DNA of 64,000 nucleotides from Lepisosteus oculatus (taxonomy: Eukaryota > Chordata > Actinopteri > Semionotiformes > Lepisosteidae), in assembly GCF_040954835.1 (NCBI RefSeq), contig NC_090711.1:5959501-6023500 (forward strand). Reading direction: 5' to 3'. The first letter of the stretch is position 1. Each line of letters starts with the position of its first letter. The position numbers and the translations under genes were made by a program. Shown one piece after another: positions 2,764 to 63,513 of this stretch. The notes beneath the pieces are model-generated. The model was not told the DNA's origin, did not search any database, and saw only the letters and a list, made by a program, of their open reading frames with translations.

Positions 2764-5700
2764 ATGGCAGAGCAGCAGAGGCAGCGATCCCTGTCCACAT
2801 CTGGGGAGACTCTCTATCACGTCCTTGGCATCGACAAAAATGCCACACCAGACGACATCAAGAAATCTTACAGGTAAACTGCTTTGCCCCTTTAAACCTG
2901 GCTCAGGTGTGCATTTCTTATGCTGTGCCTGGTTCACTTTTACACAAGCTATTGAATGTTGTAAACAAATTCTCTGAGGGCAGGAGGCTGTGAATATTTT
3001 CTATTACATTTGTCGATTCTAGACAAATGTGCTTTTTCTGTAAAACCAATAAATAGCTTTTGGTTACTTATTGCGGTATAGTAATTGCTTTCAGTTACTT
3101 CAACACCTTGTTTTCTATTATAGTGTAATATGATGCAGTTTAATTGCCAGAATTCTTAAGATACAGCAGAATTAATAAACTAATAGATGAATTATTTATT
3201 TCCTGGCATTGAGTATTGCGGTTCCTTTTTTGTGGTTTTAGCCTATAATGCACTGGAGGCTTTTCAGTGCTTTTACAGAGTGCTAGGCATATTTCTAACA
3301 ACTTCTCTAAACAGAATCTCTCCAGCTCCTTCTGCTTGCCCAGCATTCACTTGTAAAGAGCTTAGTGCAGGTTGCATCAAATACATACAGGTCAGGTGAC
3401 TTTAAGATTATACGTTATTGTTAGTATAACCATCCGGAATGTTAATCTTGTTCTACCCAAGGGATTTAATTTTGTGTTTACAATAAAATGGCAATTTCCT
3501 ATCAAATTAAAAGGAAGGAGAAATTCTAGTGCAAAAACAAGCGCCTTAAGCACATTTCCTCAAATGTCAACAAGTGTTTTCTTTTGCTTCTTTAGTCTGT
3601 CTTTCTGCTTCTTCTTTTTATGAAAATGTGTTTGATCGGTTTTAAAGTGTTGGAAACATGAGAGTAACCTCAGACAAAGTGACCTCAGTACATACTTCTT
3701 AAGAGATATATTGCAGACCATTTAATTTTCTCAGTGTAGCATAAAAAATAGCATAAATTCTTTTATTTTGCTCAGTGTAAATGGCAGTTTATAGATGCAT
3801 GTTACAACATTTTAAAATAATGCAGTTTTAATGCATAACTAAATTTCTTGTGATGCAGGGTAGATTTAGACTACAGGACAACTAATGCACCTGAAGCTCA
3901 GTCTGCTGCCTCAAAAAATCTGTGGCAATTGGGAAAAGGAGAAAAGAATAACCATAATATAAAGCATATGCAGTAAAAGAGCACAAATATTTCTTGCTGC
4001 ACAGCTGTGCTTTTTTTCTTATTTTAATATTGAATTTGTACTGAAGTCCACAAGAGGGAGACACTGGACTGGTTTGGTAACTGTCCGCCTTGTGTGCCTT
4101 TACCTAGAAACAGCAAAAGCTGGAAGTCACATTTTGTTTGTCATTTCATGGCAGTATTAACTCATAAAGTTTTTTTTTTGTTCAAACTAAGGAAGCTTAC
4201 TGAGTAAAGCACCAGTATTTGTGTTAAAAAATTGCAGCTATGTCAATACCAATATTGAAACTAATGAATAGTTTCAAAATACTTCCAGCAGTTGTGTTAC
4301 TAGCCATCTAAACTTCTGGTTATTGCACACACACAAGATCTGTACATGAAAGGTGTAGGGTTTATTTTAAAACATACATGTACCAAAGGTTTCAGCAGTT
4401 ACTTGGATCCCTGGAGCAAAACTCTCGATTTCCTCTTTCACTTATTTCTGATTTTACCCACGCTTGCACTTAGATTTGACTTTTATGTAATTTTGTGCAG
4501 TGGTGGTGAAATAAAAGGGATATGATTTTACACAGGAAACTTGCACTGAAGTATCACCCTGACAAGAATCCAGACAACCCAGAAGCTGCGGAAAAGTTTA
4601 AAGAGATCAACAACGCCCATGCGATCCTGAACGACCCCACAAAGCGCAACATCTACGACAAGTACGGCTCTCTGGGGCTGTACGTGGCAGAGCAGTTTGG
4701 GGAGGAGAATGTCAATACGTACTTCGTGCTGTCCAGCTGGTGGGCAAAGGTAAGACAAGCCAGGGCCATGCTATTGTCAGCACTCATGCGGTAAATTAAA
4801 TTGTTCAGTTTAATTGAAGGAGTGGCAGCCAATGTTCACATGTGCGTCTGTGCTCATTCATCAGACTGCAGATCTGGGGTTTTGTTTAAAGATTACAGTT
4901 GGGACCAGTTTCACCTATTTGCAGCATTTTCTAAAGAATCAATCATCTCCGGAGAATGCAGAATTTTAAAATCATAGTACATTTCTAAGTGGAATTTGGT
5001 CAGGAACAGAATGCTGCTCAAGCTCTACATGGCTTGGCGCCATAGTACCATTCTGACCTTTTATCTTCATATTTCCCCACTTCTCAGCCTTCGTTTGTCT
5101 TCCCTCAACTCTTTCAAATCCAGGCTCAAAACCTTCTTTAGAAAGGCTTTTATATAATTGATGTCTGTTTGCCCCTTTCTTCTATTACATTATAAACCCT
5201 TCTGTTTATCTGTGATAATTTTATCTCCAGTGTTTGTTGCTGTTTTAATTTTGAACTTTTCTGTAAAACTATTATATAAAATTATTATTATTACAAGTGT
5301 GTGGACGACTGTCTGTCACGCTGCAGTAGCCTCTTACAGCGCACCTCGTGCTCTCGCCCTGCAGGCCCTGTTCGTGTTCTGCGGCCTGATAACAGGCTGC
5401 TACTTCTGCTGCTGCCTTTGCTGCTGCTGTAACTGCTGCTGTGGGAAGTGTAAACCCAAACCTCCCGAGGGCGAGGAGCACGAGTTCTACGTCTCCCCGG
5501 AAGACCTGGAAGCACAGCTACAGTCTGACGAGAGAGGTGAGGTGAAGACCAGGCAGGCTCTGAGCCGCTGACTCCTGCGCTGTGGTCATTCTTTAAAAAG
5601 GAACAAGAGCTTTCCCACGAATGAGAGAGAGATTTTAGAGCACCAGGGCTGACTTTTTTACTGGCTCTAATTTACTGTATACTGGCTCTAATAATTTTTG

Positions 5701-60943: not shown

Positions 60944-63513
60944 TCACTCAGGTGGCATCTTTCTGGGTTTCCCTCTTTTCTTTACAGGTGTCTTTGTTTC
61001 CCTGTGTGGGCCTGGGAGGCTTCTGTTTGCAGAAGAAGTGCTCTCTGGGGAGTCTGCATTGCTAGTCTTTGACTGAGACCTCTCCGAGTCCTTCTGTGAC
61101 ATTTCAGGCAATCTCTCTTTGGGCTTTCGTCCTCTCCTCTTTCCAGTTGTGCTGTTCTTTAAGTCTTTCTTTAAGCCATTATGTTGGTCTTTCCTCTTGC
61201 TGTGTGGCGTTACCTGGTTGGCCGCCCGGAACCAGTTCTGCATTGAGAAAAGAAGTAAAAAAACACTCAGAAAAAAAATAAAGATAAAATATAAAAATGG
61301 CTGATTATTACCCCAGTGAACCTGAACAAACCTGAACAAATAGTAAACTCTGCTCTTTAAGATTTACAGTTTTTCACAAAACCATAATGGAGATGTTTCA
61401 CAGCATCTTAGATCCAGTTCTTGTGAGCTGAATTTCTATGAACCAGCTATGGGATTACATCACAAAGTTCACGTTATTATCTGACTGAGACTTTTTATTA
61501 AGCAGTTTATTATCTAAATCCTTAAATACTCTCTGTCCATATTTTCCTATGACACCATGGTGTCAAGGAAGTGAAAGCAAATTTAGATCTGTCTGTTATA
61601 CATTGAGCCTACCTGAGAATGAGTTTTAATGATGTGGTATTTTACTCCACTTTCCGAGCTGAACTCTTTCTGGCACAGCAAGCATCGATACTTTCCAACG
61701 GCACCACCTCCCTGAAGAACACAAATAGACTGTTTCTCCTATGGTACAAGTGTAAGTACAAAAAGCTGACAATTCTGCCTTCCCTTTCACTGGTAAGTTT
61801 TGAATATACAAGGAAAGAATACATCTCTGTACACGTTTACATGAGTATGTCTAAATAAATATATCAATTACCATCACAACAAGCACATAAAATACTCATA
61901 ATTACGTGAGATTACATTATTATTTCCATGTACTGTTCAAGGTAATCCATTAAGTTAAATTACTTATAAGAGTCAATCTATGCCTTTGTCATCATAGTTT
62001 GTTTAAATATGATGTTTCAAATACTATAAAAGTGTTGAGAGTTAATGGCAAACTGAAAGACAAATGATGACAATTGTATATTTTTACATTTATCTTTGAA
62101 AAGTACATACCTTATTACAGTTTGCTAAGTGGGCTTTAAGTCCTGAAACGCTTGAGTAGATAGCTTCACAGCCCTGCACACATATTATAAAGTAACAACA
62201 GTTACAGTCCTTGAACCATAAAAAACACCCTTCTAGTTTCTGTAAATATTAAGGAAGCAGTTTATCCCAGTGTTTCAAATGGTGGAATTTCCATGTGTGT
62301 TTCTGTACATGAGAAGCAGTAATGTGCATATATTCCTGAAAAAGCAGTTCTAGAAAACCAGGTTTGTGAAAAAGAGTAATAACATCAATTCCATTCATTA
62401 TTCATGATAATGACATCGAATACACAAGGATATTCACTTATAATTTCACATGGAAAGGTACATTTCTCATTAAAAAGCAAACTTAAATGATCTTGTTCTA
62501 TGACAGCCTCTGGATTATGTACTGTATGTAAGGTCTCAGATCTCAAATGTCCTTCATCTCCATCTGTTTAAGTACATCTCTGTTCCATAAAGGTCACAGA
62601 AGTACCTAGCGGATGCATCATTCACTCATAATGATACACGCAGCCCTACCAATTACACTTCAATGGCAATTTGGGTACATGTAATAAAACAATTTTTAAA
62701 TGACCAGGCATCACAAATCACATCTGTCTTACATGGGGTTAACCCTTCCCTTTGAAGAGCTTTGCTCACACAGGGTGTCACACGTTGCACCGAGAATAAT
62801 CAAATTTTCTGGTGAGCATGTTGTTTGTTCATGGAAACCTGACTTTGATTTGGCTTGAGCTAAACGCCTCAAGAAAAATTCTAACACATGGAAACAACCC
62901 CATAGTCTCATCACTGAAGAGCTACTGTACATTACATTCAAGAAGTATGGAACCTAATTCCTTTTTCTCCCTTTTTCCCCAAGGGGTACTAAAAATGTTC
63001 AATGTGTGCATTAAATGCATTAACAGGAAAATATGCCTAAAGAAAATATCACCAGCCCAGAAGCACACTCTACACAGCCACAATCCATGCATCCATTATC
63101 TCTGTGTGAACTGAGCCATGTACCCAACAGCTGTGAGGCAGCAATGGTAAAATATTTTACAGTAATGTGTTTCCAGCTGTGTACCTTGGTTACACTGGGC
63201 TATTAAAGAGTATGCAGTGGCAAGAAGACTATTTTGGGGGTGGTTAATTAACAAAGGAACTATTATTACAAGCAAAAACAACACTTGAGAGAGAAACAGA
63301 AAACAATCAGCCTTTTGTACAAACTGAACAAAAGGAAACAATGGTAGTGAACACTAACCAAATCTCTCATGATTTCTAAACTACACAAGCCTTGTAGATG
63401 TTATGACTTACATTGCTGGGGCAGCAAATGAATCCTTTCTCTTTGACTTCATTCTTCCAGCTTTCAAGCATCTTGGGGTTAAACTTTGGAAGCCCTGGGC
63501 GAGTATAGTTGAG
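60944..63513 (-). CDS. znf512b: Zinc finger protein 512B, 3' portion (gene runs off the window)
   Basis: Nuclear C2H2 zinc-finger protein. The last four coding exons are visible: 63513-63412, 62173-62111, 61711-61613, 61237-60944, all GT/AG, all phase 0, together 185 residues and a stop. A finger split over the first two exons reads [20 protein letters not shown] then AHLANC. The third exon carries a complete finger, [20 protein letters not shown] then TH (C-x2-C-x12-H-x4-H). The last exon starts [11 protein letters not shown] and ends in a basic tail ([26 protein letters not shown]) with AT-hook-like GRKP. ZNF512B rather than ZNF512 is chosen because UCKL1 is next to it, as in human 20q13.33. 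The 5' part lies beyond 64000. Confidence 0.85.
62866..62937 (+). repeat. Local duplication, copy 1 (ZNF512B intron)
   Basis: GCCTCAAGAAAAATTCTAAC, ACATGGAAACAACCCCATAG, TCTCATCACTGAAGAGCTAC, TGTAC. Copy 2 begins at 63832 in the same direction in the next upstream intron. Clear by eye over about 70 bp. Confidence 0.8.

Follow-up and report, generated by a model that had tools for sequence, protein, structure and literature searches.

The crh2 locus of the spotted gar and its collinear gene blocks

Gene content of the window

The subject of this report is a 64-kb stretch of the spotted gar (Lepisosteus oculatus) genome, hereafter the window, which corresponds to C16:5959501-6023500 in a searched assembly of 1.2 Gb and contains CRH2 among several conserved neighbours. 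From left to right, the window holds DNAJC5 (+), a MuRF-type TRIM gene (+), CRH2 (-), mir-1388 (-), UCKL1 (-) and the 3′ part of ZNF512B (-), the products of which are predicted from their families to be, in turn: a cysteine string protein (CSP) co-chaperone, a muscle-type RING ligase, an amidated CRH-like peptide, a microRNA, a uridine-kinase-like protein and a zinc-finger protein. The window is very probably the spotted gar crh2 locus, and it very probably descends from an ancestral segment of five genes (DNAJC5-MuRF-CRH-UCKL1-ZNF512) of which the two genome duplications of early vertebrates (1R/2R) made several copies. The original prediction, which placed DNAJC5, a TRIM55-like gene and a CRH-like gene in a row with UCKL1 and ZNF512B, is confirmed by exon models and domain matches, and its end points are exact gene features, i.e., the start codon of DNAJC5 (2764) and the first base of a minus-strand ZNF512B exon (63513). 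It made no mention of mir-1388, which was added by the follow-up. The features are as follows.

2764-7294, plus strand: DNAJC5 (CSP-alpha), four coding exons (2764-2873, 4536-4749, 5365-5536 and 7191-7294), 199 residues, with a J domain and a cysteine string
14476-20894, plus strand: TRIM101/MuRF4-type gene, nine coding exons, 547 residues, introns throughout
24343-25159, minus strand: CRH2, coding sequence 24798-24343, exon 2 from 24811, 241-base intron
24352-24480, minus strand: mature CRH2 peptide, 43 residues, between a KR site and a GK amidation signal
ending at 25053, minus strand: presumed non-coding exon 1 of CRH2, predicted from splice signals
25145-25159, minus strand: TATA-like box of CRH2
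27922-28013, minus strand: mir-1388 precursor, a hairpin lying between CRH2 and UCKL1, with a score of 95 bits where the cut-off is 58 and a fold of -37.7 kcal/mol
37991-56410, minus strand: UCKL1, kinase and UPRT halves both there, first exon near 56410 and last codons placed by reading
63513-63412, 62173-62111, 61711-61613 and 61237-60944, minus strand: last four coding exons of ZNF512B, placed by reading, the gene continuing past the window

The three introns of DNAJC5 all begin with GT and end with AG, and a DnaJ domain was found in its product. The TRIM protein contains Pfam RING and B-box domains, its coiled-coil and COS-type exons were assigned by likeness to other MuRFs, and the B-boxes of TRIM63 and TRIM54 are its two best matches among solved structures. 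Exon 2 of this gene as modelled (16656-16690) is about eight residues short; gar TRIM55, TRIM54 and TRIM63 keep SNPYLPT, SNPLWQS or ANPYWTS. UCKL1 is covered by 13 tblastn rows of one exon each, from 50221 to 38012. Among solved chains, those nearest to the zinc-finger protein come from ZNF512 (E 1.4e-8) and from KIAA1196 (E 7.8e-8), which is presumably another name for ZNF512B; the call of ZNF512B rather than ZNF512 rests on the neighbouring genes. No second place for mir-1388 was found in the gar genome among the 52 of 73,346 first-look candidates that were scored.

Spotted gar crh2 was reportedly described by Grone and Maruska in 2015 in J Comp Neurol. The identification of CRH2 in the window rests on sequence agreement with the published gar crh2 primers, which match exactly at 24402 and 24778 and delimit a 400 bp product as printed, while the gar crh1 primers of the same paper match C6 exactly with a 479 bp product as printed (PMC4602089). 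The two descriptions concern the same gene and do not differ, the reading of exon 1 and of the promoter being added here. The precursor has 151 residues, matches the CRF family (E 1.6e-11) and should be cut after KR and then amidated; a mature peptide of 43 residues is also printed for spotted gar CRH2, and the two-exon layout is as described for chicken CRH2 (PMC6727040). According to published work, gar crh2 is expressed in a single hindbrain nucleus, whereas the retina shows no expression. A CRE-like TACGTCA lies at 25312-25318 on the minus strand, about 150 bases above the TATA-like box; this motif has four sites in the window vs 2.5 expected, only its position near CRH2 being suggestive, and the upstream sequence of gar CRH1 also holds it.

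Collinear blocks in the same genome

The comparison was made within this one gar genome, the window's own assembly. The CRF family is found at five loci (C2, C6, C7, C4 and C16), which we take from likeness to be UCN1, CRH1, UCN3, UCN2 and CRH2, respectively. The DNAJC5 query gave 26 matches, with the cysteine-string exon at three loci (C16, C6 and C2); the ZNF512B query gave five, at C16 and C2 only; and the UCKL1 query gave 15, at C16 and C2, together with kinases of the UCK type on C9 and C27. With the TRIM query, at least 73 matches were obtained (124 of 204 first-look candidates scored), so that MuRF counts are lower bounds, and five MuRF loci match several exons or nearly the whole query, mostly at more than 50% identity: C16, C6, C2, C11 and a one-exon gene on C12. 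Two loci reproduce much of the window.

C6 block (200 kb), in the order and orientation of the window: DNAJC5B (+) from 51210955; TRIM55 (+) from 51236122; CRH1 (-) at 51260841
C2 block, part 1: ZNF512 (+) at 57743640; a second UCKL1 gene (+) from 57847324 to about 57881345; UCN1 (+) at 57949910
C2 block, part 2: TRIM54 (-) from 57981463 to 57967851; DNAJC5G (-) from 57997808 to about 57991158

Read in reverse, the C2 block is DNAJC5G (+), TRIM54 (+), UCN1 (-), UCKL1 (-) and ZNF512 (-), and its order and orientation match the window for five genes out of five. The triplet DNAJC5-MuRF-CRH/UCN agrees in order and orientation in all three blocks (C16, C6 and C2). Once co-location is granted, the chance of such a match is 1 in 1920 for five genes (5! 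x 2^5 / 2) and 1 in 24 for three. On C6, no UCKL1 or ZNF512 match was found. C11 carries TRIM63, and the CRF, cysteine-string, ZNF512 and UCKL1 genome-search matches include none there.

These blocks bear on the claim that the window and the DNAJC5B region are two copies of one segment from the early vertebrate duplications: the duplicated segment stands, and the count of two does not, three blocks holding the triplet and a fourth locus holding TRIM63. The window had also been read as a record of an ancestral arrangement, which holds with the amendment that UCKL1 and ZNF512B are not merely joined on this side. Because both have partners in the C2 block, they look like part of the ancestral segment.

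The genes of the window are distinct from those of C6. The presence of CRH1, TRIM55 and DNAJC5B together on C6 indicates that the TRIM and CRH genes of the window are neither TRIM55 nor CRH1 themselves, the two placements that, by the original prediction's own account, would have spoken against it. The mature peptide of the window CRH is 70% identical to gar CRH1 and 43% to gar UCN1, whereas gar CRH1, encoded separately at C6:51260841, and human CRH share 97% identity (37 residues in each case). Trees with eight, six, five or four rows, whose human and fly rows are provisional, add to this picture. Gar DNAJC5B pairs with human DNAJC5B with support of 100/99 in one tree and 94/98 in a second, and forcing the window DNAJC5 together with human DNAJC5B or with the gar C6 copy is rejected (approximately unbiased test, p-AU 0.004 and 0.003). 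In the MuRF tree, human TRIM55 joins gar C6 (99/97), human TRIM54 joins gar C2 (97/96), TRIM63 groups with the C11 gene and with the one-exon gene of C12 (100/99), and the window TRIM joins neither TRIM55 nor TRIM54. Constraint tests on this family covered seven groups and gave five AU values, uncorrected: placing the window TRIM with human TRIM55 (p-AU 0.010) or with the gar C6 gene beside DNAJC5B (p-AU 0.018) is rejected, as is pairing with human TRIM54 alone (p-AU 0.044). TRIM54, TRIM55 and TRIM63 are each present elsewhere in the gar genome, and the window TRIM is not their orthologue on these few rows and provisional human sequences. As to whether the duplications predate the split between ray-finned and lobe-finned fishes, the DNAJC5B and TRIM55 genes of gar C6 and the TRIM54 gene of gar C2 each pair with their human namesakes, again on few rows; the best UCKL1 tree shows no such pairing.

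The name TRIM101 is used here provisionally, following the synteny described by Maugars (2022; PMC9353778); a published table calls TRIM101 MuRF4 (PMC5795982). The acidic tail of the window protein carries a YPDWYK motif at 20493, and motifs of the YPxWYK type occur once in the 64 kb window (six frames) and once in 200 kb of C6, each time in a MuRF tail. Four stretches from C2, C11 and C12, 16.1 kb in all, contained none, though absence from gar TRIM54 is uncertain since its last exon was not located. With that reservation, this shared motif favours TRIM55 as the closest relative of TRIM101. The intronless MuRF gene on C12 (C12:9860416-9861345, open frame of 353 residues) groups with TRIM63, its pairing with gar C11 (79/78) not being firm, and is perhaps an old retrocopy left intact.

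The second UCKL1 gene, on C2, has matches for 12 of the 13 window-copy exons, drawn from both the kinase and UPRT halves, a short exon of ten protein letters being the sole one not found. Over the first half (264 residues), identity is 83.3% between C16 and C2, 85.2% between C16 and human and 76.9% between C2 and human; over the second half (142 residues from four exons common to all three), the corresponding values are 88.0%, 93.0% and 85.2%. Positions 42512-42538 of the window and 1876-1902 of a C2 piece (L044) are alike at 26 of 27 bases and occupy corresponding introns of the two UCKL1 genes; this stretch may be a tiny exon, the single difference being silent in one minus-strand frame, or an intronic element.

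Outside exons, the blocks share little. In a blastn comparison of the window with 200 kb of C6, the best 40 rows consisted of exons and repeats apart from a single weak match of 35 bases (E 0.002); against 71 kb of C2 pieces it returned exons, repeats and one 33-base match, most of the DNA around UCN1 lying outside these pieces. A dispersed repeat at 387-497, about 95% alike at best, accounts for 13 of the best 40 rows against C6 and for four rows against the C2 pieces.

Origin of the five-gene block

An ancestral DNAJC5-MuRF-CRH-UCKL1-ZNF512 segment multiplied by 1R/2R would account for DNAJC5, TRIM101, CRH2, UCKL1 and ZNF512B on C16, for DNAJC5G, TRIM54, UCN1, a second UCKL1 and ZNF512 on C2, for DNAJC5B, TRIM55 and CRH1 on C6, and for TRIM63 on C11; later losses would differ by copy and lineage. 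The second UCKL1 is probably a 2R-age ohnolog on the UCN1 chromosome that was lost in human, and the five genes would then have stayed collinear and co-oriented in two copies since early vertebrates, with mir-1388 found, among the candidates scored, only on the CRH2 copy. To our knowledge, human has no second UCKL1 ohnolog. The 2R age of this gene is suggested by its place in a collinear block, not by its tree, and should be discounted to that extent.

Several points weigh against this origin. The trees are small (4 to 8 rows), and their human and fly rows are provisional. The five genes of C2 span 254 kb, and other genes may lie between them. The TRIM data are ambiguous, the pair of TRIM101 with TRIM55 being supported at 54/41 only and its pair with TRIM54 not being rejected (p-AU 0.37), while the value of 0.044 against human TRIM54 is weak and carries no multiple-test correction. 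The fork between window DNAJC5 and human DNAJC5 is left open in both DNAJC5 trees. When UCK2 serves as outgroup, the best UCKL1 tree places both gar genes next to each other, though weakly (70/65); the 2R topology, with C16 UCKL1 next to human, is 1.5 log units worse and is not rejected (p-AU 0.226), and the sites where UCK2 agrees with just one of the copies lean the same way as the best tree, 5 vs 2.

The weak union of the two gar UCKL1 genes is what would be expected if the order were recent, i.e., if part of the block around CRH1 or UCN1 had been copied or moved beside UCKL1-ZNF512B in the gar lineage. We regard such an event as highly improbable, given the deep divergence of the window DNAJC5 and CRH from their C6 counterparts and given that non-exon DNA is hardly alike between the window and C6 or the C2 pieces. 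No sign of a recent translocation was seen, and all five genes recur on C2 in unchanged order. Moreover, trim101 is a neighbour of crh2 in eel and herring, and in ray-finned fishes the genes around crh2 include the dnajc5, trim and uckl1 families (PMC9353778), while a conserved CRH2 region is reported in chicken, lizard, coelacanth, gar, shark and platypus, its genes not being named in the text (PMC6727040). Equally hard to credit is an origin of the TRIM gene as a tandem or retro copy of a TRIM54- or TRIM55-like gene rather than as the fourth 2R MuRF. Its unsettled sister group, notably the TRIM54 pairing that the data tolerate, leaves some room for it, and the one-exon C12 gene illustrates that MuRF copies can have other origins; against it, the window TRIM has introns throughout and adjoins its own DNAJC5 and CRH, the pairings with human TRIM55, gar C6 and human TRIM54 alone are rejected at the uncorrected values given above, and TRIM quartets have been published for this paralogon in gar and lamprey (PMC7406891).

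A third possibility concerns not the origin of the segment but its persistence, which might reflect shared regulation constraining gene order instead of mere lack of breakage. The conservation of order and orientation of five genes in two copies and the 27-base likeness within the same UCKL1 intron speak for such a constraint; it nonetheless seems unlikely, since C6 kept three genes without the other two and hardly any other non-exon likeness exists between the copies, with the reservation that most DNA around UCN1 on C2 was not covered. The block is better described as the record of duplication followed by uneven loss, and it gives no sign of acting as a unit.

Published context and significance

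The core of this picture is already published: CRH2 in gar, the CRH1/CRH2/UCN1 paralogon, trim54/55/101, the dnajc5 and uckl1 neighbours and the eutherian loss. Maugars (2022) treated dnajc5/dnajc5g, trim54/55/101 and other families on tetraparalogous regions of reedfish as 2R families and placed uckl1 on the crh2 paralogon, naming it once, for the 3R/4R analysis; unlike the gar blocks described here, the main text of that paper has no occurrence of ZNF512, mir-1388 or DNAJC5B (PMC9353778). Cardoso (2020) located the CRH genes on separate gar chromosomes and listed a TRIM quartet among their neighbours, and the main text of this work on the CRH1/CRH2/UCN1 (opioid) paralogon contains no occurrence of DNAJC5, UCKL1, ZNF512, TRIM101 or mir-1388 (PMC7406891). 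DNAJC5B, TRIM55 and CRH are named together in a prairie vole paper and a human paper, as on gar C6, which is the counterpart of the mammalian CRH region and differs from the window in that no UCKL1 or ZNF512 match was found there. Exon models, mir-1388 within the block, five-gene collinearity and a nearly complete second UCKL1 are added here. The text of PMC9353778 and that of PMC7406891 make no mention of a second UCKL1 gene in the UCN1 block, though no search was aimed at UCKL1 ohnologs generally and novelty is not established.

The mammalian losses suggested here follow published work. The gene crh2 is found in monotremes and marsupials and not in eutherians (PMC9353778), its region is absent in human (PMC6727040), and trim101-110 are fish genes without a human or mouse orthologue (PMC3137616). 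A single eutherian deletion of the neighbours TRIM101, CRH2 and mir-1388 was set aside as a simple story because mir-1388 has been reported from cattle, platypus and horse (PMC2761914) and also from dog MDCK cells (PMC4647640); it has no human orthologue, and the bovine paper counts it among the only orthologous miRNAs of cattle for which human has none (PMC2761914). No report joining mir-1388 with uckl1 was found in the open-access literature.

Within a single genome, the gar offers a compact view of the duplications of early vertebrates, with the triplet on three chromosomes and the same five genes on two, the five-gene double block and the second UCKL1 being the parts worth pursuing. It provides an anchor for rebuilding the pre-duplication order and for asking why eutherians dropped CRH2 and TRIM101 while their neighbours stayed. 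Zebrafish has the gene names uckl1a and uckl1b, and fish UCKL1 duplicates are worth re-examining, as they may date from 2R rather than being teleost-specific.

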